NCBI RefSeq assembly: GCF_963675165.1 | Contig: NC_087377.1 | Span: forward strand, 14,194,198 to 14,258,197 | DNA length: 64,000 bases | Direction: 5' to 3' | DNA from: Halichondria panicea | Lineage: Eukaryota > Porifera > Demospongiae > Suberitida > Halichondriidae | In this document: positions 6,286 to 63,551 of the stretch, piece after piece | How the letters are laid out: every line of letters starts with the position of its first letter | Numbering within the stretch: position 1 is the stretch's first letter | Position numbers and translations under genes: made by a program | The notes under the pieces: model-generated | Database searches by the model: none | What the model was told of the DNA's origin: nothing | The model's input: only the letters and a program-made list of their open reading frames with translations

Positions 6286-8648
6286 ATGTGCCATTTACAG
6301 ACTGCTGTGCACGTCCAGAGTGTATTACACCTGCTGATCCTATGCCTTCTTATAGTTGAAGGTCAGTTATAATCATTATACAATTGACTTACATATAGGA
6401 GGGAGTGTACGTAAAGCTTGGAATTCATTACCTCGCTGTTTTTACCTCATTCTTATCTCTCAGCTGCTATGCATGTTGCATGCTAGCCTCCCCTGAATAA
6501 AATGCCTGCTACTGACTGCTTGCGCATGCGCAAAATTATTGCCTGTAAAATGTCCTGTAATACAGAATTTATCACAGAAATATCCTGACAATTGAAAGTC
6601 ATACACAGAGCTATTTTAGCTAGCTATATATAGCTAGAGAGAGCTGTATAGGTTTGTTGTACAGCTATTTTCTCTGATAGACTTTTCCCAAAGTTAGTGT
6701 CTGATGGGGGTGGCCTGTTGAATAGAGTTGTCAGCTTTCACCGGCTTCGTTCACAAACTGTTGCTGGCTGTGAGTCTTTTCTTAGCATAGTAGGCTAAGG
6801 GTATATATATAGCTGTCAGACTACCATCGGATGGGCTAGAAACCCTTCAATCGAACTTTCTATCTACTTCCTTCAATCTACTTCCTGCATGACGTCATTG
6901 TTTTACTGACCATAAACGTTGTTATCCGGATCCGCCAGATGGTTAGCGCATGCACAAGCAATCGATACCAGGCTATAGTTGTATGCATGTACATTGTTAT
7001 ACTCATCATGATAATTATGTGTATATATACATGTATAGGTATAACACCTTTTGTGTCTCTCACAGTTGATGGAGGAGGGAGTCTGGTTGGTGAACAATGT
7101 CCAGGAAAAGTCAAACTCTTCTGTAAGGGTGTAGATCTCTCTATTTTAAGATGGAGATATAATGGTGGAAATGAAATCTACTCATCAACCACTGACTTGC
7201 CAATGATCTCAATTCTGTCTAGTCCTGCTTTTGTGTCCGTAGAGTTAATTAATGTCACACAAACTCCAAATGATCCAAGATTCGGACAGTTTACTTCAGT
7301 TCTAATCGTGGATATTGCTCAACTTCAAGCTCAAAATATAGCAAGTATCAATTGTGGGGACCCTTTAACAATTGATTCCAAACCAGTTAACGTGATTACT
7401 CTCCAACCGTCTGTTCCCACTAGTCCCACGATAACTGCTGTGACTGCTACCTATAAGTTTGGCCTTTTGATGACCCTTGAAGTATCATGGATGGAGTTGG
7501 TTAGTACATTATCACATAATTATATGCAATGACAGTCTTTTACAGGAAGAAGTTTGCCTGGAATTCAAGGCCTCGTTTGTATACATGCTGAATCTAACTA
7601 GTCAACTATTACCACCCACTGTCATTGTGGTTGACCGAATTAGTTGCAGAGGCGGAATGTGCGTTGGACTATTTTCAAATATTTCAGAGAATGTAGAGGA
7701 GTACATTCTGTCACTGAGTGCTGGAAATGACATGGGATTAAGCGAAGACTCTACATATCAAAACACAATACGTAAGTTACTTTAATTTATAGATGTGATT
7801 ATTTTCATGTTTATGTAACTGCATAGAGCAACAAAGTGATCAATACTTCACTCCTGAAATCTTGAATTCTACAAGCTGCGAAATATTTGTTCGATGTGTG
7901 TCAACAGATACAAGTCTAAACAATGCTACATGTTCTGTGTTATATGGTATGAATGCCAGCACTGTCACTTTTCTACTTAACACAAACACAAAATTACGTG
8001 TTTTAAATGAACTTCAGTCAGCTGTAGTGTCACACTTATTCGTTTTCTCGTTGATGGTTGATCACATTTTAAGAATAAATGTCATCAAAGAGACGAGTAT
8101 TTCAGGTAACATGCATGCATAATAACTTTGTGCATGCATGATGATTGACATTCGTAACATGTACATACAGGTACCTGTGAGAGAAAAACGAATGACGCTG
8201 ATATCGATACAATATTTGTCGTCCTTTTCACATCAATTATTGTTGTGGTGTTGATGACGGTGTCAATTATTATAATGTGCCTTTTTGTTGTTGGAATTAA
8301 GGTAAAAACGCATATACTTTTGAGTGTGTCTGTTAAGAGAGCCGGCCATAATAACAAGAGTCTTGTTATTATGACTCTTGTTATTATGGCCGGCTCTCTG
8401 TCACCCATGCATGCACTTAATTGCACTTCATTGACAAGCCATTTTGTTTTGCACGAATTGCTATAATGATTAAAACTCACTCTGAATTACAGCCACCCCG
8501 TTACTCTGTATAAAATTAATTACAATTAATGCATGGTCAGTTCTATTACTTAGCCCTTAACACGATTGCTTACCCTTTTCTATAGCACTGTAACAAAAGT
8601 CAGAAGCCTAAAGAAGAGTATCCAGTGTCAAAAAATAATGACAATTAA
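6286..8648 (+). CDS. Receptor gene 1: Ig/FN3-like single-pass membrane protein
   Basis: Six exons with GT-AG introns: 6286-6361, 7039-7499, 7546-7771, 7827-8105, 8171-8301, 8586-8648; they join without a stop into 411 codons. Exon 1 is a signal peptide with a leucine-rich core (VLHLLILCLLIVEG). Exon 2 carries an Ig-like domain: cysteines in EQCPG and LFC, then LRW, then SINCG; it ends with an FN3-like strand (LEVSW). Exons 3 and 4 continue a cysteine-bearing FN3-like region with many N-x-S/T sites. Exon 5 encodes one membrane helix. The cytoplasmic tail is only about 25 residues (EEYPVSKNND). The start is the ATG heading the signal peptide. Genes 2-4 share the exon phases, but this member has no three-pass region and no signalling tail. 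No specific function is known to me; a cell-surface recognition or decoy role is inferred. Confidence 0.85.
8337..8398. repeat. Palindrome inside intron 5 of receptor gene 1
   Basis: GAGAGCCGGCCATAATAACA is followed by two AAGAGTCTTGTTATTATGAC-like halves and the complementary TTATGGCCGGCTCTC, giving a nearly perfect 62-bp hairpin. It is probably a miniature foldback insertion. Confidence 0.75.
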
Positions 8649-26930: not shown

Positions 26931-28098
26931 TTCAAATTGCTAGTTATTTTTTCTGTGTGATATGAGATAGACCAAGTACACACCTCAGCTCTGGTACACC
27001 ATTCTCCATCTCACGTGAATCTGTGGAGTAGGCCTTATTAACTGCAACCTTGTATAGCTAGATCTATAGTTGTTGTGTTTTTTTGAAACCACTCAAGGAT
27101 GTAGTCCATGTTTACATTGTGGGTTTACATTGTGGTTTACCCATTTGTGTGTGTGTGTTGCAAAGGTGCTTAAAAGTGCTGTACCAGTAGTAGTGATTGC
27201 TCCAACTACTACATTATACATTGTATTGTCATTAACCCGAGGCGCGTGGGCGGCCACGGGTTATAGTAGTCTGTCTGTTTGTTTGTTTGTTTGTGATTGG
27301 CTTTTCTACTTACCTGGATGCTACAGCACTGCGTTTACAGCATGGATAGCCTTCACACAACAATATCTTGGTTTAAATAGTGGCAGATTTTTATGTTAAA
27401 GCTTCTTTGTCGAGCAAAAGCTAAGAAGCTTGAACAAGCTTGTGACTAGGTCTGCTTACCTGGATGTTCTAGCACTGCGTTTACAGCATGAGTAGCCTCC
27501 ACACAACAAGTTAGTACTTTGGATAGTGGCAGCTTTCGTTTTTAAAGCTTTGTTGTCTAATAAAAGCGAGCAAAATGTAGCTTGAACAGAACTTGCACAT
27601 GCGTTACTTATAACTGAAGTGATCCTGTACCAAGAACGATGGAACAGGGTCACTAAAGTAGAAAGCTTGAATTATAGCTCCTGCTTAGCTGACTGGGATC
27701 CTACTCCACAGGACCTGGAGCCATACTTCTCTGAGACTCCAGGCTTCTTTGCTGTGATCCTAATCCACAGTGCATATAGTACCACTACCTGTTCTCAAAT
27801 GTTTCAGCATGCCTCCAGTCTGGTTTAGTTTTATTGCTCCTTAGTTGCTGTGCAAGTCATACGTGATAACAACATCACTATATATGGCACTGCATTATAT
27901 TTCTGGTTTCTTTATAATCATGTCACCAGCCGAGGGTTTGCACTTTAGTGCTCTAGTTTACAAGGAGATACACATGTAAAACATAATGTAATAGCTAGAT
28001 GCTTAGTCTAATATAATAACATAACTAGAATGGAAGAGAGAAGCTCTAGTTTCTTCTTTTGGCTTTATTCGAGATCCGTTCGTTTCTTGCTGTGCTTG
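26931..28098. repeat. Gene-free stretch with a tandem duplication
   Basis: TTACCTGGATG, AGCACTGCGTTTACAGCATG and TAGTGGCAG appear at 27,310-27,400 and again at 27,458-27,550, a direct duplication about 150 bp apart. A GTCTGTTTGTTTG microsatellite lies near 27,270. No gene is seen. Confidence 0.5.
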
Positions 28099-28265
28099 TT
28101 TGCTGCAAGGCTGCATGGGGGAGGAGCTGGATGTAGGAAAGTGCTGGGATTTTAACGAGCGGCTTCTATTTACTCGAAGAAACCAAAGTAAAATCTCAGC
28201 GCTACATCCAGTTCCTCCCCCTTAGCATTGCAGCAAACAAGCTCAGCACACTGCCCAGCAGCTCC
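28099..28265. repeat. Foldback with GCTTGTTTGCTGCAA ends
   Basis: GCTTGTTTGCTGCAAGGCTG and GGGGGAGGAGCTGGATGTAG are mirrored by CTACATCCAGTTCCTCCCCC and TTGCAGCAAACAAGC. Arms are about 65 bp. Confidence 0.75.
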
Positions 28266-28497
28266 TACTCGAACAAAGCAAGCTGTCTATTACGTTAATT
28301 ACATGGCTGTGTATAATATATATATCCAAATAATTTAAGTTGATGTTGTAGTTTGTAGCCCAGAGCAATCTATCGGTACTATAGCCTGCTAAATACACTC
28401 AAATGCAGTGACGGATCCAGGGGATCTCCCCTTTCAGTCCAGCTATTGTGGCTTTATTATACAGCTACCAGCTAGGTATTTATCAGTTTTCGTAGTT

Positions 28498-29558: not shown

Positions 29559-29814
29559 ATCTTGCTTATATAAATGGCAAACCCTTGTACTAGGGGAGGT
29601 GGGGTACAGGTGGGGATTTGAACATTATATAACTGCGATGTAAATTCCCTGTCTATATATACAATCATCAGCACATGGCTGCCCATGCATGGGCAATAAT
29701 TATGTCAAGTCAATATAGCTTGCCTTGATAATTTATTGTAATTGTATAGTGGGGTTTTCCTAGGGAAATTTCCTAGCCAGCATGTAACCACGTACATTGT
29801 TCTAATTACCACAG

Positions 29815-32800
29815 AAACATCTCATTCATCTGGGTTACATTGTCCTGGTTGTAACTGCACACTTGACAGCTCAGTCTCAAGGTGGGAAATCAAAACGTCA
29901 CTCGTGCACATGTAGTTGATCTTGTTGCTTTCTTTTAAAGGTACAAATCCATCACTCACACTGACTGTTGAGGGAGGAGGGAGTCTGGTTGGTGAACAAT
30001 GTCCTGGAACTGTCAAGATCTCATGCATTGGAATCGACTTGTCGATTTTAAGGTGGAGATTCAATGGGAGCACAGATGTAGTAACATTTTTCTCAGACAA
30101 TGTGGCACCTTCTCCATTCACAAATAATCCAGCATTTATAAGTGCCAAGCTACTGTCTGCAGCACCAGATCATCTGGATCCAAACTTTGCTAACTTTTCT
30201 TCAGAACTTGTTGTAGATGTGTCAAAACTGGAGACAGAGAGTGTAACAAGTATTACTTGCGGTGAGCCAGATACTTTCAAAATGATTCCAGTAGATGTTG
30301 AGATCATACAACAAACTGAGCCAGAGAGTCCCAATGGAACTAATGTGACAGCTCTCTATGAAGATGGATCCTTGACAGATGTCACTGTTTCTTGGGAAAA
30401 ACTGGTGAGCTATTAACAAACGACGAGAAAAGTTTTAAATGAAGTACCTTATTGTTACTATTATTAACGGCTACTAATTTTAGCGAATTTATAATTAACG
30501 CTAAATTAAGTACACACTAATAATAAAACGCAATTAAAAATTGTGAATCTCATTAAAAAAATAATAATAATAATTTTCCTTTCTTTTTTTCTAATGTACT
30601 ATAGTATAATGTAATGTACCATCAAGGTAATGTTTTTTTGCTGCAGGAAGCACGTTGTCCTGTATTTCAGTCTTCTTTAGTTTATCAAGTTCAGTTTGGC
30701 TTTAGTGTCGTTGCAGTAAATCACACAAGCTGTGGAGAAGTGTGTATCGTCAACTTCCAGAATTTTTCTGATGCTTCTGAGGAGGATAGGGTATCACTAT
30801 CTGCTGTGAATGTAATCGGGGCCAGTAAAGTTGTTGAACATTCAACCCTCATCGGTGTGTTTAAACAATCATGTATATGACCCATAATTATTACCTTGTG
30901 CATAATTATAATTACGTTATTCTATTTTCAGTGAAACAAAGCAGCTTCTACTTCACACCTATTTTCCTTTCAAACGATTGTCTGTTTACTTGTGAATGCT
31001 TGTCAAATGGAAGTCTGGATATAGACAGTTGCAATGTGTTGTACACGACTGACTCGATGTACAGGGATCCAACGATGATTGTTTCTCCACTCAATACGCA
31101 ATTTGAAATAGCTGAAATTACCACTGACAGAGTCTATTATTTTGAGTTCTCCACGTCTGTGAATGTCACTCTGCTTGTTAGGAACAGACTTACTGAAAAA
31201 GCAATATCAAGTGAGTATATATCACACAATTACAGACGTTTACAGACGTTAACTAATCTCTGTTTTCAGGTCCGAGGTTCAGTGCAGTGGTTATAGTTTT
31301 CCTTGCTCTAACCATTTTGCTTATCACTGTCGGAACAGCATTTGGTATAGGTATACATTATAATGTAAAATTGCTTTACGTCTTGCACATTTTTGCAGTT
31401 ATCTGTGTTACAAAGCCGCAGGGGATTAAAACAAAGATTGTTTTGTTGGTATATCTCTTGGGAATGTTGAGCTTGATTTTTCTAGTTGTTTTCTCCATTA
31501 TCACTGGTGTTCAACAAGGTAAGTTTTTACTGAGTTAAATATATTTTCTAAGACATCTCTCTGTAGACACATGCAGTCTGGATTGGAGCAGAGCACGTGA
31601 TGCATTGGTCATCGTAGCCTTTCTGTTTGCTCTATTTGGAAATGCTCTTCTGGTCTGTTTCCTGCTTGCCTCTTGCCAACAGAAAAGTAAGGCATCTTTA
31701 ATTCTCAAATTAATAGCAATCAATTTAATTTGTGCCTGTGCCTGTTGTCAGAGTCCCAGATGAATTTGCAGTTTAGCGAAGATTCCCAGACCAACATGCA
31801 TAGGTAATAATATTATAATATAGTAATTATAGGTATACAATTAATATTTTTGATTTCCTCAGTATCTCAGAACAAACGGACGCAATAGCTGAGGTTAGTA
31901 GTTGCTTCTATCAAAACTATTGTGTATGTGTTGCATAATTATATAGGAGAAGACAAACAACACTTCAGGGGATAATGCACATTCGGAGAATATAAACGGA
32001 GAGCTGGAGTCTAGTCAAAACAAAAAGAAGAAATTCACTGTCTACAAAGTTGTGGTCAGACTTGAGGATAGGTCGTACTTTGTGTTCAGAAGGTGATCAT
32101 GCAATGCTGTCCTTTGTTAGATCATTATGTAAAGTGTTGTAACTGCAGGTACAGTGAATTTGAAACTCTTTTTGGCGAAATTAAGAAGAAGTACCCATCC
32201 AGGGATAAACTGGTGAAATTGCCGGGGAAGAAAGTCTTGAAGAGCAAATTTGATCCGAATTTGATCGATGAACGTCGCATTGGGCTGCATGATTTCATTA
32301 TCAACCTCATGAATGTATGCTTCAGTTGTAATAGTGACTTGTAGGTATGTGAGCATATTATACACACTCCCAGATCCCCAACATCCTAGAGTTTCTCCCG
32401 GTTCGTGAATTCCTTGCCATCGACGACCCACGTTCAGCACTCCCCATCAACGACGAGCCGGCAGACGAACAGAAAGTGAAAGAGGCGGCAAGGGGGGAGC
32501 TTGGTGAGAAGGAGGACGCCACTGCCAAGATCACTGACCTTGACCTGCTCAAAGTTATTTGGAAGGGAACCTTCGTGAAAGTAGGTATAGCTTGTGAGAG
32601 TTAATTTACGGTAAAGCCTGACCTCCCATGCAAAATGTTGCTACAAATCACCTATCAGCCTCAAAATTACAGTCAGACAATGGACAAACTCACTTATATT
32701 TCAAGGTCTATACCTATTGTAGTAGTCATAACCAGCACGCTTACACGTTACATGTTCCAATAGCTCTAAAACAGCCTTGGGAACATATAACTTTATTGGA

Positions 32801-35800
32801 AAGTCTCTTTTACTGGGTGTGGTCAGTCATTAGCAAGTACTACACGTGGCTCATGGACTAGGCGTTTTATAAATAGCTGAAAGAGATGATGTCTCGAGGA
32901 AACACAGCTTTGGGAGTTACCCGGCAAAAATGTGCTTAATAGCCTCGTTCATAGGGCGTAACGCGGATAATTTTCGAGGCTCCACTGCAGATTCAATGTA
33001 AAATCATCACGTGCACCACTCCGTTTCCTATCCCTCTAACTCTTCAATCTATGATAAAACTAAGGATTTTATGTGTGTATAATCTTACGCCTGATTTTTT
33101 GTATAGATGAAATTGTATGACTAACTTTAATAATTATGTTGAATTCATGTCTAAACAAAATTGCATGTTGTCAAATCAAAACAGTCCTTTTCACAATAAG
33201 CTGCTGACACAGTAATTTATCTGGCTGGAGTCCCATTTTGGTGGCTGTGTGGGGAATTTTTACCGATGTAAAATTGATGATCTTTACAAGTACATTTAGT
33301 AGCCATTTCTTCTAATATAAGGATGCTATTAAATGCATCAAAGGAGGTACGACACGGTCACTTGACCAGCCAAAAGGATTATGAATCTCATTAACTTGTG
33401 CATGATGAAGACTGTGTACTTTGATAGTGGATTTGGTGTTTTTAGTGTAATTCCGTTTTAGAGTGTTTATTCAGGATATAGGATCACTGCCAACATCTGA
33501 GCCTTGGTTCTTACAACAAACCTAATCTCTACTTGTAAAACTCTAGTTACTAGCCAGCAACAAATTCACTGAGTTTTATGCTCTCTTTATGGCGCTTACT
33601 TGCCACCAGCTGAAGAGTTTTGGAATGCATTTTTAACGACTTCTTTGTCTTTCTTGCCTTCAATCAAGAAATAGCAGCGACGTGAGCTTAACCGAGTGTC
33701 GTACCTCCTCTGTAAATGCACCAAGTTTGATGTTCTGAATCAAAACTACACCTGAGTTGTGGTAGCTTGTATACTTGTCTACTAATATGGCTCTAATATG
33801 GCTCAGCTTGACTCTTCTATGACCAACCAAGAGAAGAAAAAGGTTTTTCTCACTGAAGTAGATTGGGAACTCTTAGAATTCAGCTAGATCTACATACACT
33901 TTATGTTGATTTAGTGAGTGCTGTATAGGGGGGTATATCACAGGTGTAGTTTCTTTCTAGAACATCAGACATCAGAAGGTTGGACGCGCGTCATCCACCG
34001 TCAGGTTTTATCACGTGCGCTCATAAGAATCTAATTAAAATGACCGATTAGGTACCATTAGGCACCTCGATGCTCCACTGTTTTGTAGGCTGTACAGAGA
34101 CACTGCAATTAAGTAACCAGAAGTGGTCTAGGAGCATTCCCATCGCCCTCTCACCTTCCCTACACTGCTGAAAAGATTCCAAGATGGATCTAGACTAGTA
34201 TTTAGATATTTTTGACACTTTCCCAATTTTTATCTAACAGGATTATAATCTATATGAGCAGAGGAGGTCAGAGCACCATTAATTTGTTTCTCTTTAGCGT
34301 TCTCTAGCTCTTACTTGCACTGATAAGCTTTTACATTCTCACTTTTGACCTCAAAGGAATTCATCACAAGACTGAAGGGCGTCATATGACGCGTGTCCAA
34401 CCTCCTCTGGGTAGAACAAGCTTCAAATTTCTTTTGGCAGCCTTATATGAACTTGGTGACCTTGTAATGATCATCAATTTTACATCGGATTGATAGTAAA
34501 AACGCTCACACAGCTACCAAAATGGGACTTCAGTGGCGACTGACATTAATTTGACAGGCATGCAAATATTTTTTTTTATCGCGAGCCCTGCCTATTGTCA
34601 GGTTTAGCATATTTTGGCCCAGCCCGGATCTTTGATGTATACAGGCACACATGTAGCACCAAGAGTAGATAAGAGTAAGAGTGTTGAACTGCTAGTAACA
34701 GCATTTGCCTGCTCCTGCGTCATCACTTGATATAGTAATCAGTACTAATTTGTTATGTTAGCAACACTTCCCAGAAACCGCACAATCTGTGATTGCGCAG
34801 TTCAGTACTACAAACCACAGACCACAGTTTACTTAACAGCACTCATTAATTGAACAGTGACGACAGTGATGACGCATGTCAAGGTAAATGCGGTTCCACG
34901 ATTACTACAGCAGTTCAACACTCTTACTCTTATCTACTCTTGATAGCACACGTTAAACTTTTAAGAGCATTATTTTAGGGGACTGAGCTCAGTAATTCTC
35001 CTTTCTGAACAATGGCAGACTCCTTCGATTGTGACTGTAGGGGTACGTGTATCTCTAGCCCATGAAGTGGGCTAAATCAGTTAAATTCATTAGTATATCT
35101 ATGGTCTTAGACACTAGTTGATAAGATCTACATGGGAAGTACAGTGGAACCTCCTTTAACAACCACCTCTGAATAAAGGCCAGTTGCTATATAACGGCCA
35201 GACACCCAGGTCCCAAATGAACAGTTTGTGTACAAAACAACCTCTCAACAAAGGCCACCTCTGTATAAAGGCCAAAACATTGTTCCCCAAAGGTGTCCGT
35301 TATAGAGGGGTTCCACTGTACATGGGAAAAGTGCTTCAGAGCAGGTATACTATGGGACTTAGTATACCTGCAAGTTTACTTAGTATACCTAGTATTCCGT
35401 TGTCAAGTAATTGTATTGTAATTGTATTGTAGTCAAGCGGTTTGCGCATGCGCACTAGTATCTAAATGAGTTAGTCACTGTTTTGTCGGTGTCCATGTGA
35501 TTTAGAAGCCCTCAGCTATTTTAGTACCCTCGCTATGCACGGGATACTAAATCAGTGCCTTTGGGCTTCTAAATCCCATAGACACCTCCAAAACAGTGTC
35601 TAACTATTATATAGTGTCCCTCAGCCCTCGGGCTACGATAACGCCCTAGGCTCTAACATAATACGTACAATCATGCGTCCTATAGGAGAACACATGGTAC
35701 AAGGTTCATTTTCGTGGCATGACTCATGCATGTGTATCGATTTATAGAGTAAATGATCGTCTTATTTAATGATAGGCACATAAGAAAGCTAGGTTTGTGC

Positions 35801-38800
35801 ATTCAATAAAGACAGTGTAGAAATTCACTGTGAGATCAGAAGTGGTCCAGAGAGTCTTGTGTTGATGTATAGACTACGTATTTGAGTTTAGATAGAAGTA
35901 ATATAAGCTAGGGTACAGAAGTAGCGCTGGAGACCTTATTTAATTAATAATCATTCTTGTGGCGGTTAGTCACTGCATGTAAGGAGGCATAATAATAGTT
36001 CACTAACAGAGCTTTCCTGTGGGATGATATTAAGCTAGTGCATGCATGGTTTAAAAGGGTTAAATTCTTGTGTTGATGTACAACAAATGTAAACCTGCAT
36101 GTGATCGACAATTCAACACCACTATACCACTACAATGCACATGCAGTGGTGGATCCAGACAGGTTTTCACACAAGAACACACTAGAGATCAACTTACTAT
36201 AGCTAGCAACTCAGCTTGAATGATCGTGATAAGTTACCAGGCTGATTTCGTGCAATTAATAATTATGTGGGCAGGGCTCTCTAATATACGCATGCTCATT
36301 GCTTAGGAAAAGTGATGACCTATTTTTTAGTAAAATTAGCTGTTTTGGAACCTCCCTTTCAACATTCCTGGATCCGCCACTGATGCACAATGATTGATTT
36401 CGATTGAACTCAGTTATAGCCCGGAATAATCGGACATTATTTAACACAGATTGTTTTACTCTTCCTATATAATCTTATCAGATATATATCTTTAATGCTA
36501 TCACATGATCTCTATGCAGCCAATCAGCTTATCTAAAGTAGTTACCTGACCATGCTTTAAATAACTTAATTCACACTGAAGTATAGTGTTCTTTAAGTTA
36601 CTTTGGCACACAGATTTAATGTTGGCTAGGTGTGTTCTATAATATCCACTGCACATGTGCACTCTAACCACACATATTATACTCTCTCACAGGTATACCT
36701 GGGTCGACACAAGGAAACTGGTGCTTTCTATGCCATCAAAGTCCTGCAAAAGGAAGCAATCATCAAACGCAGCGAGGTTGAACTCATCATGGCAAAGAGA
36801 AGCATCGCGATCCACCCGTTTCTAGTAGGCCTACATTGCTCCTTTCAGACAAGGACCAAGCTATATTTTTTGTTGGAATATGTAAATGGTGGAAGGCTGT
36901 CCTCTTATCAGGAAAGGCTGGAATATGTAAATGGTGGAAGGCTGTCCTCTGATCAGGAAAGGCAGAAAAATAATGTGTTTGATGAGCGCAGTGCAAGGTG
37001 AGTAGTCAGACGCCAGTTATTATTATGCTAAGCGGATTATTTAGGTAGCTGCATAGCCTAAACTCAGTTTGTTAGCTCTTATTAAGCTCCTATAACATAA
37101 TAATGATCAACTCTACGTAAATGTAGTGTATTATTATAATTATGCCTTCAAATTAGTTCAAGTTCCTATGATACTGCCGCCGATGACCTTACTGCATATG
37201 TTGGTTTTTGAAATCCTGCATGAGTGTCGTACAGTGTCTGTCTGACGTTGCTAAGAAATGGACAAAGAAATTCAGCAAGAGCATAACTTAGATTCCAGGA
37301 TTCGAGCTGGTTCAAATAAAGGGTGTGGTCTCATACATATTTACGCAACACTAGAGCCACACTTTTTTCCTTTAAAAAGGTGTGGTGTCTATGAGATTTC
37401 ATTTCTGAATCACAGATTTGGTTCGAGATTTCATGGAATATTCCGGATTGATTCCCTTTCCCCGTTGAAGCCGTCATAATTATGACGGCCACTCTATTGG
37501 TCATTTTCAAACATTTGCTGTGCACGCTGTGTTGGAGCTATGCGCACGCTGTATGTACCAGCACATGCGCATTGAGCTGCTCTTTCACGTGGTATCTTTA
37601 ATATACTTCCTCGAGGTACAGTAATGTCGAAAGAAAAGTGACCGTTTCAAGATCTTCGTAGTACAACCTCAGCGAGGTTCTAGAGCAGCTAGACAGTGAG
37701 AATATCAATGCTTATGGTCTTGTTGAGTGAGAGAACAGTGACTGGGATCATAGCTAGATAAGAAGCTACCTCAAGCTAGAAAATATAGAGCCTGAAGGCC
37801 TGAGGAAGAAGCTCTTGCGATGGACCGACTTCTTGGATCTGGTAAATCTAGAGTAGCATCTGTAGTCTTGATAGCTTCAGTACAACTGTATTTAGGCTAT
37901 AGTTAGTACAGCAGTGGACATCACCATTGAACTTGTAAACCTGAGTGTAGGTGAAGAAAACATTTCCCGGGAAAAGGGCGTCTGCTGATACGACCTCGCA
38001 GATAACTTTCTGCAGATCCTGATTGAACCATGTCACTGTGAGAACATTGAGAACACTGCATGTCTTTAGCCACTCTGTGCCTTCATACAATATTGTTTGT
38101 GTACATGGATTGAGTATGTTTGTAAACAATTGCTAATTAGTGGGGGTGCATGGTCAGTTGCTAGGTAACGATGATGGTGTCAAGATACCTCTGGTGTCTG
38201 CGCTACCTGTAGAAAATAGTTACAAGTCATTTCAATGTATGGTTCATGAGATATGCATTTTTAAAGAAAATTGTGTTCTCAGAATTATGTCTCCTCTGAT
38301 AACGTTTTAGTTTGTGGGGGGGATGGGTGTGGCTTGTATCATTTATTCTGTATTTTCTTGCTTTAATTAAAACGGGGAAAGGGTTAAGGCTATATATAAT
38401 TTATGAGATTTCACGTTGTTGCCAGCCCCTCGGTTCGATCTTACTCGAGAAAAGACTCTTAATTGTCTCTCACCCTTGTGAGCTTTCCTTTGTTACAATA
38501 CAGTGTAGCAAGTGCTATAGATACTCATAGCAAGTCTTTAGAAAAATCTTGAACCTCTGCATGGATGGCTGGATATTGATGAGAATCACACAAAGCAAAT
38601 CACACGAAGTATAAACAACATCAGTGGCGTAGCCAGAGGGGTGCAGAGGGTGCTCCAGCACCCCCCTCTGGCCTCAGACTCTGCTCCACAAGTTCCTTTT
38701 TTACTATTAAACTAAGCTGATATGAGAGAACTAGAGCTAGCTCTATATATATTGCACGACGATCAACTCAAAACTCCACCTCCAACTAGCTAGCTCCACT

Positions 38801-41800
38801 TCCAAATATTCATTCATCATGCGCAAAGCCACGTGGGCTGAGCAGACCAAGGTCCCCCACAGAGTTGCAGATTGTTCAGCAGCTATCACCATCATCATCA
38901 TGTCACTCTTTGAGTATTTTTCAGTTGAGCCCAGTTCACAGAGCAGCACTCCAACTGTAATTCACAAGCAGAAGTACCTGGTTAGCAGCTGCATGATTTA
39001 ATTGTCACAAAACAATGCATTTTCTAGGACATCTTCAGATGAAGATGTGGCTTAACCACCAGTACCCTCAAAGCAGCAGTACCCTCATTTCTTTAGCCAG
39101 ATTGCGTTAGAATCAATCTCAGAACATGTAACAACACATTTTCTGGGGGAATGCCCCCAGACCCCTGTTGGGGCGCATTTTGCTCCGCGTACTGGTAATT
39201 CGGACAATCCATTCATCCATGCAGCACCCCTCTCTCTCAAATCCTGGCTACGCCCCTGAACATAGACATACACAGTTACTTCAGCTATACTGTTCTTAGG
39301 TACTCTAGTACAAATAAGTATAGATCAATGCTTGCATGTAGAGTGCATGGAAACGGAATGCGGACACGGAATGCGGACGCGGAAAGCGGAAACGGAAATA
39401 TCTTAGCTGTCTAAAGTTAACGACCATTATACCATTCTGTGTTTTTTTTTTTACACAGAATGGTAATGATGAGCAAAAAACATGCACAGAATGGTAAATA
39501 TGAAATAATTATGCCTCGGTGCGCATGCGCAAGCGAGGTATACGGTAGTGTGTTTGTGTGTCTGTCTGTGTGTGCATGAGTGTGCAGACTATACTATACA
39601 GCTGCTCAAGGATCAATCAAGTGCAAGTAAGAGTTCTATAGGCTTCTATAGTCATGTTTTCTTGGATTTGCAAAAATTAATAATGCTTCATTCTCGAGTT
39701 ATGCCTAGTTTTGCTTGCTTGGAATGCCATTGCAGCCTTTTCAGAAGAGTGCGTAACAAAACTTGCATGTTCACCGCGCGAGTGTTGCTACTCTAATTGT
39801 AGTTAGCTCTGCACTAGAACACTATAAGCTATTGGTAGCTGCAAGAGCGAGAAGAGAGCTGGCAAGGCTCTGCTGATCCATGCAGCCATTAATTTTAGAC
39901 TTGAACTTTTGGCATCGATCATTTTTAACAGCAATCATGGTCGATTATTACCCACTCCTTGAATTTGCATGCAGCAAAATTAATTAATGCAAAAATTCAT
40001 CACAATGATTGTGTGTATAGCTTTGGCACCTCCACCGAGGCATCACCACCCGCGATGCTTTCATTCATATAAACATGAAAGTATGAGAGTGAATGAAGTG
40101 AACGTTTCTGCATGATTTAGAAGCCCAAAGGGCTGGTAGTATCTCGAACGCAGTGCCCTGAGGACTTCTAAATCACGTGGAAAACTTCCTAAACAGTGTC
40201 TAAGCATTTTAGAGCATAGCAACCATGAGTATTTAGCCAATCAGATTTGAATGTTCTTATCTCTACATGATTTCTACATGAAAGCACCTTGTCTCTAGCT
40301 ACCTTACCTAGTTGCTCCTTGAAGCTATAGATAGATTTGATAGATTTGATAGGTTTCCCCACAGCACCCCTCTACAAATACATCTGCCTACAAAAAAATT
40401 AATGCTTTTATGTTCATTTATTCATGTCAAAAACACAGAATGGTAATGGTCGTTAACTTTAGACAGCTGAGATATTTCCGTTTCCGCTCTGCTTTCCGCC
40501 TTCCGTTTTCCGTTTCCTTCTTTTCCATGCACCCATACTTATAATTATGCTTCATAAATTATCTTATTGAGGCTGCTGCATGAGGAAGATATCTCATGTG
40601 TCGAACTTGAACTATTTATTACTCCTCTGATTTGACGGCACTCATTATGTAGACACTACTATAGATATTGTTGAAGTGTAAATGGCTCTTGTCTGGAATC
40701 TCCTCACCCGGCTTTAAAGACATGTCTTCACTTCAATTTAGATTGCTAGGCAACCAAAACACGTTCAATATGTCAAGAATAAATAATTTTTGCCACATCA
40801 TCTAACATTAGAATTTTTCTTAGTACGTACATAATGGTGTGCAGTGAAAATTAATCTGACAGTTAAAAAGTGCTGAATCAGCGAATAAGCCTAGCGCTTA
40901 TAGTATGTCCCGTGGCTGGACTCATTGCATAGGGGAAGTACAGGGGGTGGGTGTAGCTCATTGCTAATTCAGTAAAAAACGCTGTTGTCACTGTTCATCC
41001 ATAAATCATAAGAAGACATAGTGAGGCAGCAAAGAAAGAAATGGGCGTACAGTTAAGAAAAAGTAAGGCCTGGTTTGGGAAATCGTATGATCCACAAGGA
41101 TTTTTATGAACGTGGGCGATATGTAGCCCACAATCGTGACGTAAGGTATTCTCCCACGCATTCAGAGTTAATAAGACTGTACTGTACTATATATACTGTA
41201 TACTGAGACAAGCTGTGCTGCAAGTCAGATCAGAGAACCAGCGTGGCCAGCTCTGGTGGCAGTAGCTACCTGCTATATGATAATGATGACTTGATCTATA
41301 CTATAGACTATAATTATAGCATGTAGAAAGACACAAGAAAAGGTGCATGATAGTAGAATAGGATAGAATCTGAACACACAATCTAGACTAGTAGATCATC
41401 TAGCTAAGCCTAAGGTATAGCTAGCTCTAGTGCTTGCAAACTTCCAGTTCCAAGTCCATGTCCAGCTTGCTGCAGGCAAAGTTTTATTAGTCATAGATCT
41501 CTGCGTGGGCAGTCCAACATCCCTAGCTCAGCATGCCCACGCTCATTTTCACCCTTCTACCACCCTTCTACCCTCACGCGACTTCCTGATACAGGCTCTC
41601 CTTTTTCCTAACTCTACGTCTATATATTTCTTTCTTTATTCCTCCAATTAATACAGTCTTATTGAACAATTGTGATAAAGAACAGAAAAAAAGAAAAAGG
41701 AGAGCCTGTGTAGAGGCTAGATAATCTACTCAGCTTGTGATGTCAGTTAGCTCTAGCTGGTATAGTTTAGTAAAACGGGTTCGTTATGGCGAAAATCGAA

Positions 41801-42731
41801 TTATTAGACAACATTTTTCACTGTTTCGACAACATTTTTGCTGGTTGTTACAGGCAATTATTTGATAATTATTTGTTTGTGAAATACATGAACTTTTACC
41901 AGGCGCACTTTGATGTCTAACGGAGTTCGGCGACTTGCTGTAAAGTTTTAAAATAGCCCTATTAACTCAAAAACACTCTTACAATTGCGACTTTATAACT
42001 AAATAAGGGCATGCACTATATACTGCCAGTGACTGGACTATAACATAATTTTATTATTATTTACCCGTTACAGATTCTATGCTGCCGAGATCACCTCCGC
42101 CCTCGGGTACTTGCACAGTCTCAATATTATTTATTGGGATCTCAAACTTGAAAACATTCTACTAGACACTAACGGGCATATCATGCTAACAGACTTTGGA
42201 CTCTGCAAAGAAGAGGTCAAATTTGGAGAGGCAGTAACAACTTCTGGCACTCCCTCATACCCTGCCCCTGAGGTGCTCAAAAAGAAAGAGTACGGTTACA
42301 GCGTCGACTGGTGGTGTCTGGGCGTGGTAACCTACGAAATGCTGTACGGGCTGCCACCGTTTTATTCTGAAGATGTTGCTCAAAGGCACAGTAAAATTTG
42401 TCAGATGTCACTAGATCTGCAACTACACATCACGTTCAGTGCTCGAGACTTGCTCGAAAAATTGCTACAGGACAAACGTGATCGATTAGGTGAGATTGGT
42501 GATGCTAAAGACATCAAGGCTCACTTATTTTTCAAGTCCATCAACTGGGATGACCTGTTTGATAAGCGATTGAAGCCTCCTCCGTTCAACCCTCCGGTAA
42601 AGAATGCCCTCAAACTCGGACCATTTGGGTCCGAGCTTACTGCCAAGGCTATTTCTGGCGCACAGAAACACGGCACAGTGGGTTTGCCATGTGTGAGCAT
42701 TGCTGACGACACTTTTAGTGTAATGAACTAG
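29815..42731 (+). CDS. Receptor gene 2: Ig/FN3-like three-pass receptor fused to PX-SGK-like kinase
   Basis: Fourteen exons with GT-AG borders and matching phases: 29815-29881, 29941-30404, 30647-30854, 30932-31210, 31270-31344, 31399-31518, 31567-31686, 31752-31803, 31863-31893, 31947-32092, 32149-32314, 32374-32580, 36693-36997, 42074-42731. They total 966 codons without an internal stop. Order: hydrophobic signal-like segment (YIVLVVTAHLTAQSQ), Ig-like domain (EQCPG, ISC, LRW, SITCG), FN3-like region, three membrane helices in exons 5, 6 and 7, a polar linker, a PX domain, then an AGC/SGK-like kinase. Exon 10 holds linker and PX start in one reading frame. No initiator ATG is visible in exon 1, so an upstream exon or a lost start is needed. 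The alternative is two genes, with an SGK gene starting at a Met in exon 8; transcript data would decide. Confidence 0.72.
31947..32580 (+). other. PX domain and kinase entry of receptor gene 2 (exons 10-12)
   Basis: The protein reads FTVYKVVVRLEDRSYFVF then RRYSEFETLFGEIKKK, followed by KLPGKKVLKSKFDP, DERRIGLHDFI and PVREFL. This is the order of the PX domain of SGK3 (CISK), including the RRYSEF phosphoinositide-contact arginine, the KLPGKK loop and the later basic ERR. PX domains of this type bind PI3P on endosomes. Exon 12 then runs through an acidic/basic linker into ITDLDLLKVIWKGTFVKV, the first strand and glycine loop of an SGK kinase domain. Confidence 0.88.
33338..33712. mobile_element. 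CAGAGGAGGTACGACAC MITE with 8-bp target duplication
   Basis: The left end CAAAGGAGGTACGACAC and the right end GTGTCGTACCTCCTCTG are inverted; TAAATGCA is repeated at 33,330-33,337 and 33,713-33,720. It is the same family of ends as at 400-510. Confidence 0.85.
33972..34409. mobile_element. CAGAGGAGGTTGGACGCG MITE, copy B
   Basis: A near-identical copy of 24,249-24,685 in the same orientation, with the outer left end slightly shortened (CAGAAGGTTGG). Confidence 0.85.
34663..34952. mobile_element. Foldback with AAGAGTAGATAAGAGTAAGA ends
   Basis: CAAGAGTAGATAAGAGTAAG then AGTGTTGAACTGCT is mirrored by AGCAGTTCAACACT and CTTACTCTTATCTACTCTTG. The interior is non-coding. Confidence 0.8.
35142..35318. 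mobile_element. Short CAGTGGAACC MITE, TA-flanked
   Basis: CAGTGGAACCTCCTTTAACA at the left and GGGGTTCCACTG at the right, with TA on both sides. Repeated AAAGGCCA phrases are inside. It is pogo/mariner-like and distinct from the 28.5-kb type. Confidence 0.8.
35471..35612. repeat. Foldback with TGATTTAGAAGCCC arms
   Basis: TCACTGTTTTGTCGGTGTCC then ATGTGATTTAGAAGCCC is mirrored by GGGCTTCTAAATCCCATAGA and ACCTCCAAAACAGTG. A diverged copy is at about 40,110-40,205. Confidence 0.7.
36144..36382. mobile_element. CAGTGG(T/C)GGATCC MITE
   Basis: CAGTGGTGGATCCAGACAGG at the left and CCTGGATCCGCCACTG at the right. A similar left end (CAGTGACGGATCCAGGGG) occurs at about 28,406. Confidence 0.7.
36693..36997 (+). 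other. SGK-like kinase N-lobe exon with 45-bp internal duplication
   Basis: VYLGRHKETGAFYAIKVLQK matches the SGK/AKT N-lobe; the ATP-anchoring Lys of YAIK is kept. The helix C region reads ELIMAKRSI where SGKs have an AER: the conserved Glu is Lys. HPFLVGLHCSFQTRTKLYFL and EYVNGGRL follow the family. The segment LEYVNGGRLSS(Y/D)QER is present twice in tandem (36,873-36,917 and 36,918-36,962), a 45-bp in-frame duplication. The exon ends at AG|gtgagt. Confidence 0.9.
38622..39258. mobile_element. CAGTGGCGTAGCCAG-ended DNA transposon remnant
   Basis: CAGTGGCGTAGCCAGAGGGG at the left, TGGCTACGCCCCTG at the right. A 5-bp repeat AACAT lies on both sides (38,617-38,621 and 39,259-39,263). No transposase is seen. 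Confidence 0.75.
39343..40532. mobile_element. 1.2-kb foldback with GTGCATGGAAACGGAA ends
   Basis: The left arm GTGCATGGAAACGGAATGCG, then AATATCTTAGCTGTCTAAAG and CCATTCTGTG, is mirrored at 40,430-40,532 (CACAGAATGG, CTTTAGACAGCTGAGATATT, CTTTTCCATGCAC). The interior includes a copy of the CA-microsatellite repeat (39,505-39,790, plus strand) and a TTTAGAAGCCC foldback (40,110-40,205). Confidence 0.8.
40981..41719. repeat. Dispersed 0.75-kb repeat, copy B
   Basis: The reverse complement of 21,692-22,461, with the outer GGCCTGG end missing on the left; the right end is AGAGCCTGTGTAGAGGCTA. The two copies look very similar by eye. Confidence 0.85.
42074..42731 (+). other. SGK-like kinase C-lobe exon
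   Basis: Starts FYAAEITSALGYLHS; the catalytic loop reads IIYWDLKLENILL (SGK consensus YRDLKPEN), DFG is intact (LTDFGLCKE), the activation segment is TTSGTPSYPAPE, then VDWWCLGVVTYEMLYGLPPF, KRDRLGE, LFFKSINWDDLF and KPPPFNPPV. The C-terminal tail ends ADDTFSVMN and lacks the FxxFSY hydrophobic motif needed for full AGC-kinase activation. The catalytic Asp, Lys and Asn survive; the HRD Arg is Trp. The single exon ends at TAG 42,729-42,731. Confidence 0.92.
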
Positions 42732-56060: not shown

Positions 56061-59000
56061 ATGAAGTATCATGCAAGACACTTTGTGATCTTTCTGCTAA
56101 GCTGGTTACACTACTGTCAAGGTATGTTTAATGATCGATTATACTCCGAGTACTCTTTATTGACTTGTGTATATAGGAACCTCAGTAAGTGTAATTACGG
56201 ATGATGGAAAAGATACACTTTCTGGTTCGTACTGTCCTACTACTGTTAAACTTATCTGCAATGTTACAAGTCTTCCTCATTTGCGATGGACGTACAATAC
56301 CAGCAAAAACATAATTGTTATTTTTCACTCGGATAGTGTAGTACGTTATCCAATTGCAGCATTTCCATTTTACCAGTTAACACAATTTAATGTATACAAA
56401 AATAATATGAATCGGACTCTGATTAATGCTTCAACGATCCTCACTGTTGATCTGTCAGATCTGAACAAACAGAATATTGAAATTATTTCTTGTGGTTTTT
56501 CTGCTCTGGACAAGACAGTGCCAGTGAATATCAGCATTTTGCAACCATCCTTTCCTTCTGTCAGCCCCCAAGTTTATACAGCTGTCATTGTATGCTATGA
56601 GTCTGGACTTGTATCTAGTGTAGATGTATCATGGAGAAAATTTCAGGTACATATAATATAATAACTATAGAAAGAAATGCAAATGCAAACCCATGGTTCC
56701 TGTAGCAACCAAATTGTCCTGAATATGAAAATTCCCAAGAATACCTCATCAATGTCACTGGATGTGGGTGGACGTGGCTCAACCACAGTACCTGTCAGGA
56801 TACTATTTGCTCGTCCGTTTTCAGTAATTGTACGGAGAACCTGAGTAAAATTACCCTACAAGCCAAGATCGCTGACATTGAGAGTGGACAAGTAGTTTTT
56901 CCCACATCTGTAGGTGAGGGCATTAATCTAGTAGTTTTTAGATGTATCGGCTTTTTTTACAGATTACAATAATCGGTACTTTAGAGCTGCTGTTAACCAG
57001 TCATCTAGATGCCAAATTCATGTGCAGTGTTTACCCATGAGAGGAGATGTTAGTATACATCAAATGTGTACCATTCGATACACTACAGATCCAGATTATG
57101 GAAATCTATCAAATCCTATCACAACTCTAGTTGGCACAGCACCTGTCTCACTTTCACTTACTACTCCTGGTACCATGTACTACTTTGAGTTCTCTGTGTT
57201 GATGAATGATACCCTGTTGATTGTGGAACGAATACAGTACACGATTACAGAATCAGGAGGTATGGCACGTGATTAAGAGGTTCATGTGTATTCACTTCAA
57301 TTAGCACAAGAAGTTCATGCACTTGTGTTCATTTTCTTACCGTATTACCATACACCTACAGAATCGTTCCAGTTGGGTGCAAGAGAAGGCGTCATCATTG
57401 CCATTACATCAGTTTTCTTAGGATGTTTTACTGTGCACACTACTATCATGATATTGTGCCATTTAAAATTTAGCAGTAAGCAATTCTTGTCACTCAGACG
57501 ATGGTACATAATGATATCATTGCAGGTGATGATCATACTGTTTCCAGATTGAAAAAGTTAATTACTAACAAACGAATTCAAATCTCGATAACACTGATTC
57601 TCCTGGTGCTGTTTATTGGGTGTAGCACTCTGCTGACAACCTTTGCCATTATTTCAAACGGTATATTGGAGTATTAATATTGTGCTAATTTGATAGAATC
57701 AGAGTGTTTAGTATGTGTTTGAGTGTTTTCTTTTCAATAGATATGTGTTTCACAAACCAACAAGTTCCCAACAGTTTGCTTGATGCATTGTTAGTAATTT
57801 CAATCATTGGGATAGCATCCATTCTCCTTTATTGGGTCTCAGTGGGATACACAGTTTATAAACAGAGTACAACAGAAGGTAAGATATTACAGTTGTACAT
57901 GTATAGACTCATATTTTTCATGCAGGAAACAAAACCAAGCTTCAAACAATGTATGTTCTCCCTCAGTAACAATGTTCTGTTTATGTGACATACAATAATT
58001 ATAGGTCTTGTTGCGACAGCAATCTTCACAAGAACAGCAAATCAAAAACGCATGAACGTAATATCCAAGAGGTAATTTGTTTATGGTTTATGATGTAGAT
58101 TGTATTTACGAAGGATATATACCACATGCAGGAAAACTATAACACTCTGAAGCACACCCATAGTTTAAGGCCATCAGACAGACATGACATACAGGACGAA
58201 ATTTACGGGAAACTTGAAGAGGTTTTACTATCATGTATATACTCTCGAATAAATATTAGGGAATAAAATAAGCATTGCATCAATGTCCATTTTTGGTAAA
58301 ATTTAATAATTATTAAGTTTGCCATACAACATCCTATAAAGGTTGGAGACTGGAGAGTTTATAGTCGGCAAAATAACACTGAGAGTCATATTATGTGTTT
58401 TGTCACTTGCATGTGCATGTAATAATTATTTTTTATGGAGACAAATTTTTCAAATAGAATATAATTGGGGGGGCCAGAAGAATAATATTATTTACTCTGT
58501 CAATTTCCCCCCTAAATTAGACATTTGAGTATCTCCCTATGAACGTCAGTGTGTATGAGCCACTGAGGGCTGGAGAAAAATCGCAACCTGTTCATAACGT
58601 AGCCAATGCAAGTTACTCCCATATTGGAAGACAATCAGAACCTGCTGATACTCATGTTCTATGCAACATGCAGATCCATAACATGAGAGTAAGACGTAAT
58701 GTCATAATTATGCATAATATAACCTTGATGAACCTCAGGATGATTACGATGTTCTGGATAGAAATGAGATGTCCTTGTGTACCAGTGCCGATATCCATGA
58801 TCCATGTGAATCGGTGTATGGCAATCTTGATGAGGTAAGCAAAGTCTATATAATAATTATATCCATGCAATTCAAAACTATACGAGCACGCATTTGAAAC
58901 TATTTTTGTCACACAATCTATAGGCCTCCATTGAACCCCATGGTGATGGTGTCTATAGTCAGCTAAGGCCAGGGGAGAAGTCAAGGCCAGTACCAAACAT

Positions 59001-59079
59001 GACTGATTCCAACTACTCCCATGTGGATTTTAAAGAACAAAGTCCAAAGAGACAACATGAACTGAAGAAGCTAGACTAG
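56061..59079 (+). CDS. Receptor gene 3: three-pass Ig/FN3-like receptor with ITIM-like tail
   Basis: Thirteen exons: 56061-56121, 56177-56646, 56706-56913, 56963-57259, 57362-57475, 57526-57660, 57741-57878, 57926-57950, 58005-58071, 58132-58221, 58530-58688, 58739-58834, 58924-59079; 671 residues, no internal stop. Signal peptide (FVIFLLSWLHYCQG), Ig-like domain (SYCP, LIC, LRW, IISCG), FN3-like region with many N-x-S/T, and membrane helices in exons 5 (GVIIAITSVFLGCF), 6 (ISITLILLVLFIG) and 7 (LLVISIIGIASILLYW). The cytoplasmic tail has eight YxxL/I/V motifs: YNTL, YGKL, SVYEPL, YSHI, YDVL, SVYGNL, YSQL, SNYSHV; three fit the strict ITIM consensus. Such motifs recruit SH2 proteins after phosphorylation in known animal receptors; that role here is inferred. 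The exon 11 acceptor (TTTGAG) was chosen because it alone keeps the frame. Confidence 0.85.
58222..58529. other. Intron 10 of receptor gene 3 with repeat remnant
   Basis: This 308-bp intron contains CATCAATGTCCATTTTTGGT and nearby phrases that match the interior of the 2,039-2,375 element. Confidence 0.5.
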
Positions 59080-60916: not shown

Positions 60917-63551
60917 ATGGTGAAATATTACTTTCTACTCTTTATTCTAAGCTGGTTACACTACTGCCAAGGTATGTGAAACAATTATAATTATAAATTA
61001 TTCAAGCTAAAAATTATTACAATCCCTTGTGGATGGACAATGAATAATTATAGGAACTTCAGTAAGTGTAATAACGGATGATGGAAAAGACACACTTTCT
61101 GGTTCATACTGTCCAACAACTGTTAAGCTTATCTGCAATGTTACGAATTTTCCTCATTTGCGATGGACGTACAATACCAGCAAAAACATAATTGTTATTT
61201 TTAACTCGGATAGTGTAGTACGCTACCCAATTGCAGCATTTCCATTTTACCAGTTAACACAGTTTAATGTATACAAAAATCATATGAATCGGACTCTGAT
61301 TAATGCTTCAACGATTCTCACTGTTGATCTGTCAGATCTGAACAAACAGAATATTGAAATTATTTCTTGTGGTTTTTCTGCTCTGGACAAGACAGTGCCA
61401 GTGAATATCAGCATTTTGCAACCATCCTTTCCTTCTGTCAGCCCCCAAGTTTATACAGCTGTCATTGTATGCTATGAGTCTGGACTTGTATCTAGTGTAG
61501 ATATATCATGGAGGAAATTTCAGGTACGTATAATATAATAACTATACAGAAAGAAATGCAAATGCAAACCCATGGTTCCTGTAGCAACCGGATTGTCCTG
61601 AATATGAAAATTCCCAAGAATACCTCATCAATGTCACTGGATGTGGGTGGATGTGGCTCAACCACAGTACCTGTCAAGATAATATTTGCTCGTCCGTTTT
61701 CAGTAATTGTACGGAGAACCTGAGTGAAATTACCCTACAAGCCAACGTTGCTGACATTGAGAGTGAACAAGTAGTCTATCCCACATCTGTAGGTGAGAGC
61801 TTTAACTTGGTAGTATTACATTTATCGACCTGTTTTTTTTATTTACAGATTACTATAATCAATATTTCCGACCTGCTGTTAATCAGTCGTCGAGGTGCCA
61901 AATTCATGTTCAGTGCTTACCTATTCATAGATATTTTAGAGGGAATCAAAAGTGTACCATTCGATACACTACAGATCCAGAGTATGGAAATCTATCAAAT
62001 CCTATCATAAATCCTGTTGGCACAATACCTGTCTTACTTTCACGTATCACACCTGGTGCTATGTACTACTTTGAGTTCTCAGTGTTGGTGAATGATACCT
62101 TACTGATCACAGAGAGAATTGAGTACATTACAGAATCAGGAGGTACGGGAATGAAATTTTCTTGAGATAATGCCACTTTAATCAGCAAGATCTTGTCTCA
62201 TAGACGTGTGCATGCTCATTTTATACTGCACACATGCACCTACAGAATTGTTTCAGTTGGGTGCAAGAGAAGGCGTCATAATTGCCATTGCATCAGTTTT
62301 CTTAGGATGCTTTACTGTGCACACTATAATCATATTGTGCTTAAATAGTAAGTATATATATATATACGTTAATTTTTGTCACTCATCAGTATTGGCATAA
62401 TAATAATAGTATTATAATAATTATTGCAGAGGGTCATCCTACAGTTTCCAGGTTCATTTCTAACAAACACATTCAATTCTTGATGACACTGATCCTCTTC
62501 ATGTTCTTTATTGCGTGTGGAACTCTGTTGACAACCTTTGCGATTAATTCAAATGGTGCGTATTGGACTTGTGCCAACTCTCGTTTGCAATACTTTGTGT
62601 GACATTGTTTTTAATACAGATGTGTGTTTATTGAATGAAGAAGTTCCCAACAAATTGCTTGATGCAATGTTAGTACTTTCATGTGTTGGGATAGGAATTC
62701 TTCTCCTCTATTGGGTCTTTAGACGATATAAAATATATAGACAGCATACTAAAGGTAACTTAGAGAGAGTAATTAATATTGTATACATCTTTTCATGCAT
62801 CTTATTTTGTGTATAGGAACCAAAAACAAGCTTGAAAACACGACGTATGTTCTTCCTATGTAGTACAGTTCATTATATTTTAATATAGGTCTCATTGCGA
62901 CTATGCTCTTCATCCGAACACCTCTTCACAAAGAGCTCAATATAACGCTCAAGAGTCACCTGAGGTAATTAAATTGTGTTTCAAATTAAGACAATTTATT
63001 TTGCTATTCAGAAGACACCTGATTCTCAAGAGTGCCAACAATTGCATCCCGAAGGCGTTAATGAAATGGTTCCAATGCCTAAGAAGCCTTCGAATGGCAG
63101 CCAGCTAATGACGACACCTAGTAGGAAATGTCCACCCTCTACACTTCCCAAACAAAGAAAGTTAGGTCAGCATTCCAACACTGTTTTGTACGATGAGGTT
63201 GGTTTAGCGAAAATCAAAGGCAATGTCTCGGATATGACAGAAGTTGAGTTGAAAGCTAACGAGTCTTACGGGCACATAGACAAAAGGTTTTCAACTGCCA
63301 AGAACAACGTGACTGCTTGTCCATTATGTTCAACACCAGCCAGCAAAATCCAGCAAGATTTGTCATTAAGTCATCAGTACAGTGAGATTAAAGCGAAACC
63401 GAAGGGTGAGCATCCTGAGCTGAATGCTATTGAGCAGGAGCAGATAGAGTTGAAGTGTAATCAGTCGTATTGTCAGCTAACAAGTGCTGTGGGTCAGATA
63501 GGAGGATGTGAACCACTGCACGAGTACGACTATATATACGTGGACTCCTAA
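60917..63551 (+). CDS. Receptor gene 4: three-pass Ig/FN3-like receptor with tyrosine-rich tail
   Basis: Ten exons: 60917-60971, 61054-61523, 61585-61792, 61849-62142, 62246-62347, 62430-62555, 62620-62754, 62817-62844, 62889-62964, 63012-63551; 677 residues, no internal stop. It has the same architecture and phases as gene 3: signal peptide (YYFLLFILSWLHYCQG), Ig-like domain (SYCP, LIC, LRW, IISCG), FN3-like region, and three membrane helices (GVIIAIASVFLGCF; FLMTLILFMFFIACG; LDAMLVLSCVGIGILLLYW). The last exon is a single 180-codon tail unlike gene 3, with VLYDEV (strict ITIM), SYGHI, QYSEI, SYCQL and EYDYIYV, plus a CPLC pair. The stop is at 63,549-63,551. An SH2-recruiting signalling receptor is the likely role by analogy. 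Confidence 0.87.

Follow-up and report, generated by a model that had tools for sequence, protein, structure and literature searches.

A predicted sponge membrane protein with an Ig/FN3-like ectodomain, three membrane passes, a PX domain and an SGK-derived kinase-like tail

Does a receptor of the sponge Halichondria panicea carry a PX domain and an SGK-type kinase behind its membrane helices, in one and the same chain, and is the kinase active? The question is raised by positions 29815-42731 (+) of the window, by which we mean the whole 64,000-nucleotide stretch of DNA that was analysed (contig NC_087377.1, forward strand, positions 14,194,198 to 14,258,197). A first, sequence-only reading of the locus had joined receptor and kinase and had proposed a new class of ligand-driven receptor Ser/Thr kinase. 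The explanation that we favour, with a probability of about two in three, is that a single gene would encode a single membrane protein composed of an Ig/FN3-like ectodomain, three passes, a linker, an SGK3-type PX domain and an SGK-derived kinase-like scaffold. In what follows, the window copy of the gene is W and its paralogous copies are A, B, C, D and E; comparisons were made within a genome of 131 Mb, in which the window lies on contig C1.

Rebuilding the W gene from sequence recovered the same 14 exons that had been described before, with GT-AG at every border and matching phases. The joined frame extends from the Ig-like exon through to the kinase C-lobe and comprises 967 codons and one stop, a correction of the 966 open codons originally counted. 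All exons lie on the plus strand. Exon 1 (29815..29881) encodes a signal-peptide-like stretch, KHLIHLGYIVLVVTAHLTAQSQ, which has no Met and recurs as the same peptide in copy A. An Ig-like domain and the start of a first FN3-like domain are assigned to exon 2 (29941..30404), which shows 32-91% identity to 19 other family members, and a second FN3-like domain to exon 4 (30932..31210). The remainder of the first FN3-like domain is placed in exon 3 (30647..30854) by sequence pattern only.

The two structural assignments differ in strength. When modelled singly, exon 4 gave an FN3-like fold (pLDDT 70.6, VIA Z up to 9.9), with matches to FN3-type domains, and 285 of the 998 aligned PDB chains reached Z >= 8. 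The single model of exon 2, confident at residues 22-110, is Ig-like in a weak sense, with VIA Z at most 6.0 and none of 1000 PDB chains at Z >= 8; its best matches were of Ig type. Foldseek alone returned no match at E <= 0.001 for either model, the whole W ectodomain found no match among PDB sequences at E up to 10, and the sole Pfam match on the ectodomain was Big_4, a bacterial Ig-like family, which in W scored 17.2 bits, below the cut-off of 22.1. The Ig/FN3-like character claimed earlier for the ectodomain is plausible for exon 4 (Z 9.9) and less so for the Ig-like part in exon 2 (Z 6.0).

Hydropathy places three membrane helices in W at residues 337-373, 375-407 and 416-444, in agreement with the earlier count, and the hydropathy segments of copies A (five) and B (four) map to the same three places. 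The first helix is encoded by exon 5 (31270..31350), the second follows a short basic loop in exon 6 (31399..31518), and the third follows an outer loop (DTCSLDW) in exon 7 (31567..31686), whose DNA is 95% identical to that of copy A and 98% identical to that of copy B. The basic loop between helices 1 and 2, together with the KK that follows helix 3, matches expectation for a cytosolic tail, and the proposal that three passes would put the kinase in the cytosol fits both features and the hydropathy.

Comparison of the upstream DNA of W with that of A, B, C, D and E yielded no start Met for W or A, nor did it, together with the first exons of other family members (8 of 10 loci gave an anchor), point to an upstream coding exon common to the copies. 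An ATG lies inside exon 1 in copies B and D and is absent from exon 1 of W, A and E. A GGGGTTTTCC-AGGGAAATTCC block at 29751-29773 resembles Rel/NF-kB sites and may serve as a core promoter; each of the five aligned copies (W, A, B, D and E) has it, roughly preserved, some 40-65 bases upstream of exon 1. Against an expectation of 2.5, GGGRNWYYCC matches the window 12 times, at eight places.

The case for one chain is carried by the paralogues and by the exons that connect the membrane to the PX domain. Copy A (C1:14011805-14025365, 0.21 Mb before W) and copy B (C1:14401363-14410211, 0.18 Mb after W) contain the same 14 exons in the same order, with 981 and 965 codons respectively, no inner stop, no frameshift and all splice sites kept. 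The cytosolic linker occupies exon 8 (31752..31803; 52, 58 and 55 nt in W, A and B), exon 9 (31863..31893; 31, 40 and 31 nt) and the beginning of exon 10 (31947..32092; 146, 200 and 182 nt), which continues into the first PX strands. All five length contrasts of these linker exons are multiples of three, as are all 15 exon length contrasts among W, A and B, an outcome with a chance of about 7e-8 in a test that is not wholly blind, given that borders in A and B were placed with the help of alignment, manual inspection and the GT-AG rule, a procedure that allows few alternatives at exons 8 and 9. Borders set by hand from sequence were those of exon 1 of B, exon 5 of A and exon 10 of A and B. Of the 18 corresponding intron contrasts, 3 are divisible by three. 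Consequently, the earlier claim that receptor and PX-kinase belong to one chain gains from two paralogues of the same design and from linker exons that stay in frame, and one chain is, on these genomic comparisons, the best model for W.

An arrangement of two adjacent genes that were copied together, a receptor ending after helix 3 (for example by retention of intron 7) and a PX-kinase starting at a Met of exon 8, would account for several details of the same region, and we consider it quite improbable. The linker and PX-start exon had been described as having no in-frame Met; this is true of exon 10, but exon 8 of W holds two (MNLQ..NMHS), both conserved in A and B, so an inner start of a separate PX-kinase is thinkable. 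If translation runs on from exon 7 into intron 7, the frame closes after a short tail in each of the three full copies, so that a receptor without PX may be a second product, and the relatives D and E indeed end without PX. AATAAA occurs in intron 7 of copy A and in intron 9 of copy B; introns 7-11 of W, of 53-65 bases, have neither AATAAA nor ATTAAA. Against separate genes stands the need for a promoter inside the membrane-helix exons or inside introns of 48-65 bases. Furthermore, the exon 8 acceptor joins exon 7 in phase in all three full copies, as it also does in C when read by eye, and the linker exons vary by threes only, while a kinase started in exon 8 needs no fixed phase with helix 3. 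With exon 7 spliced to exon 8, the reading frame of W, A and B stays open as far as the kinase end. In copy C (L008), read by eye, the frame continues through exons 8-10 to the first PX strand before a stop appears; this copy lacks the GT at the aligned exon 5 donor and may thus be broken. A 515-base query of joined exons 7-11 found no retrocopy of a spliced message in the genome: its 14 matches were single exons, or exons 10 and 11 across the short intron 10.

The tail of the favoured single chain begins with a PX domain that is close to that of SGK3. Its core lies in exon 11 (32149..32314) and its end in exon 12 (32374..32580), which also encodes a link and the start of the kinase N-lobe. 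The PX of W scored 47.2 bits in Pfam (cut-off 21.6), and the three closest solved PX domains were all SGK3 entries (E 2.6e-24, 1.1e-23 and 3.9e-23 in PDB). The PDB alignment shows that the FRRY/RRY and RR.GL positions of SGK3 are retained. We take these RRY and RR.GL positions to be those that contact PtdIns3P in SGK3, and their retention suggests that the PX of W may bind this lipid. Leaving aside the separate SGK gene described below, SGK3-type PX exons were found in the genome at E <= 0.001 only in W, A and B (9 of 12 matches listed at E up to 10). The Pfam profiles were run on W and A, with B left out.

The kinase belongs to the SGK line. In W it scored 182 bits with the Pfam Pkinase profile (cut-off 31.7), as compared with 83.4 bits for PK_Tyr_Ser-Thr. 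The closest solved kinase was SGK1 (E 2.6e-98), with AKT2 behind it (3e-74), and the best 60 of 2438 PDB matches comprised SGK, AKT, PKC, S6K and PKA, that is, AGC kinases, with no member of the TGF-beta receptor line. The identification of a PX domain and an SGK-like kinase in the sequence-only reading is thus confirmed by Pfam and by the closest PDB structures. We compared this domain with SGK1, in the PDB alignment, and with the last exon (C1:17683570-17684229, minus strand) of a separate SGK gene (L003), which served as reference for intact SGK motifs; that gene was read in its last exon only, which is preceded by a run of N, and it retains YRDLKPEN, TFCGTPEY and the hydrophobic motif FAGFSY.

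All three full copies share changes at sites required in SGK-type kinases. In W, A and B the Arg of the HRD motif is Trp (YWDLKLEN versus YRDLKPEN in the separate SGK gene), the third Gly of the glycine loop is Val (KGTFVKV versus KGSFGKV in SGK1; in W, exon 12 reads IWKGTFVKV), and four residues are missing before HPFLV relative to SGK1. The first loop Gly is gone in W and B. The activation loop is altered in all three copies (TTSGTPSYP in W versus TFCGTPEY in the separate gene), and the C-terminus is cut off at the point at which the hydrophobic motif would start (DTFSVMN or DTFNVMN versus DTFAGFSYVPS). The alpha-C Glu of SGK1, which we take to sit in SERN, would be Lys or Arg in W, A and B. 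Copy A has DLG in place of DFG. Exon 13 of W (36693..36997), which encodes the part of the N-lobe that includes the Lys (FYAIKVL), contains a near-exact tandem duplication of 45 bp (LEYVNGGRLSSYQER / LEYVNGGRLSSDQER), equivalent to 15 residues and absent from A and B. Exon 14 (42074..42731) encodes the C-lobe (YWDLKLEN, LTDFG, TTSGTP) and stops at DDTFSVMN, before the hydrophobic motif.

These lesions bear on the model in which ligand binding switches on an active SGK-type receptor Ser/Thr kinase. W keeps the Lys (FYAIKVL), the Asp (YWDLK), the Asn (LEN), the DFG Asp and a Thr in the activation loop (TTSGTP), and with the catalytic Lys, HRD Asp, Asn and DFG Asp in place weak kinase activity may persist. 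Yet the changes that W, A and B share in the HRD motif, glycine loop, activation loop and hydrophobic motif, the four residues gone before HPFLV and the 15-residue insertion by duplication in W mean that an active receptor kinase is not the likeliest reading, and we regard it as unlikely. The proposal of a new class of ligand-driven kinases is the weaker part of the earlier reading. It looks as if the SGK-derived domain lost its standard activation sites before W, A and B parted and its fold was kept under selection. In W the tail is probably a scaffold built on PX, its kinase being weak or dead, and the kinase-like domain more likely serves for docking or as a switch than as a strong catalyst.

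The pattern of substitution is in line with a fold that is kept. We calculated dN/dS by the Nei-Gojobori method, with bootstrap intervals, for the three pairs among W, A and B. Values were 0.29-0.37 in the ectodomain and 0.25-0.35 in the kinase N-lobe, with all three pair intervals excluding 1 in both regions. For the PX domain (0.22-0.40) and the kinase C-lobe (0.41-0.65), two of three pair intervals exclude 1 and the third reaches above it. Intervals include 1 for the helices (0.47-0.68), the linker (0.52-0.60) and the link between PX and kinase (1.18-1.50, over 34 codons only). Ectodomain, PX and kinase fold consequently look kept, the C-lobe less tightly.

The same values weigh on the view that the genes are fused yet decaying, the copies being pseudogenes or on the way to becoming so. 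Such decay would agree with the missing start Met of W and A, with the exon 13 duplication and the kinase lesions common to the copies, and with the presence of partial copies (C and D), an isolated exon 13-14 pair and five short kinase fragments. On the other hand, three copies of 965-981 codons have no frameshift or inner stop and keep every splice site, and dN/dS is below 1 in the ectodomain, the PX domain and both kinase lobes (with one PX and one C-lobe pair interval extending above 1). We hold decay of the copies to be an unlikely account of the locus.

Our preferred reading of one receptor-PX-kinase gene places W in a large local family. A search with the receptor half gave at least 100 matches, all on contig C1 (90 of 111 candidates were scored), and 92 of these lie between 13.88 and 14.54 Mb on both strands. 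The three-helix block occurs in six copies among the matches listed, namely W, A, B, C, D and E. After the helices, copy D, read by eye, closes at a stop behind a short tail, and copy E has a different tail, with no PX or kinase match within 19.8 kb. Because tails differ among family members, the PX-kinase tail is one of several. An exon 13-14 pair stands alone at C1:14377419-14379523, with no PX match in the preceding 8.9 kb. The beginning of exon 14 recurs as five short pieces (C1:14077639, 14099133, 14159617, 14168451 and 14493423, plus strand), every one of them 1-2 kb ahead of an ectodomain copy on the minus strand; they are perhaps relics of further fused copies that spread in a repeated block.

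Further Ig/FN3 family members lie in the window at 6996-7809, 56179-57234 and 61056-62162. Downstream of the second of these, a more distant relative, open stretches with unjoined exons at 57277-59076 encode three hydrophobic segments and Tyr motifs (SNYSHV, VYSQL) that resemble an ITIM/ITAM tail. Upstream of W, a stretch at 27957-28364 was found whole once (81%) and partly again (77%) before copy A; by eye it is palindromic and MITE-like.

Trees of single exons do not tell one history. In the tree of exon 4, the copies with PX exons (W, A, B and C) fall on one side (79/89), B grouping with C. The tree of exon 2 groups B with D (81/80) and both with C (94/96), and leaves W, A and E without resolved placement. 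The exon 2 alignment used 20 of 28 rows, partial or overlapping ones having been dropped, and its tree 10 of the 20; alignment and tree of exon 4 used 10 of 10. The disagreement between the two trees suggests exon exchange between copies, and with such exchange the trees do not establish a single gain of the fusion.

We propose that in one subgroup of the receptor array the PX and kinase exons of an SGK3-like gene landed behind helix 3, and that the joined unit then reached three full copies (W, A and B). The ectodomain would bind a surface ligand, with uptake as the next step. The PX domain may then bind PtdIns3P in cis, on the endosomal or phagosomal membrane that carries the receptor, and so hold or sort it there. 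Because the normal SGK activation sites are lost, the kinase-like domain would serve mainly as a docking or switch module that couples the receptor to partners, with catalysis weak at most. The large local array suggests that the receptor could recognise microbes, food or other cells. The broader idea, that a receptor line arose by tail swapping in a fast-changing array and that one chain reads both a ligand and the identity of the endosome or phagosome membrane through a PX/AGC-fold tail, seems to us evenly poised between true and false. A chain that is actually produced would show how the receptor array of an early-branching animal swaps its signalling tails, and it would open the question of whether a PX-bearing receptor reports the arrival of its ligand at the endosome or phagosome.

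Such a chain, if produced, would be an animal receptor with a tail of the AGC/SGK line and its own PtdIns3P reader; we know of no described receptor with this combination. The full-text literature on sponge SGK/PX transmembrane receptors and on metazoan SGK3 PX architecture, in a coverage that holds a minority of subscription papers, yielded none, and among the titles listed on the Amphimedon kinome and receptors, on sponge Ig/FN3/ITIM receptors and on AGC pseudokinases in Porifera, none announces such a protein.

Known systems share parts of the design. SGK3 (CISK) has the same order of a PX domain followed by an SGK-type kinase, and its PX is the closest to that of W among solved structures. 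SGK3 is soluble, whereas in the fused model the pair sits behind a three-pass receptor and has lost the activation loop and the hydrophobic motif. GPCR-phospholipid kinase proteins have seven passes and a lipid kinase; W, in contrast, pairs three passes with a PX of the lipid-binding kind and with the fold of a protein kinase. In joining a multi-pass receptor to a phosphoinositide-linked module, W resembles the described GPCRs that carry phospholipid kinase domains at the C-terminus (PMC5784254).

The TGF-beta receptor family likewise combines an ectodomain, a membrane anchor and a cytosolic kinase fold of Ser/Thr type in one chain; it differs from W, where the kinase is of the SGK/AGC line, the passes are three and a PX domain is present. 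Ig/FN3 receptor tyrosine kinases differ in the kinase itself, that of W scoring higher with Pkinase than with PK_Tyr_Ser-Thr and having AGC kinases as its closest structures. Receptor pseudokinases (HER3, RYK and the receptor guanylyl cyclases) offer the likeness of a kinase-like domain in a receptor tail without normal catalytic sites. They belong to tyrosine-kinase or related lines and have one pass, whereas the domain of W is derived from SGK and has a PX ahead of it. Set beside these systems, what appears to be new is a receptor with a PX and kinase-like tail, rather than a new class of active receptor kinase.
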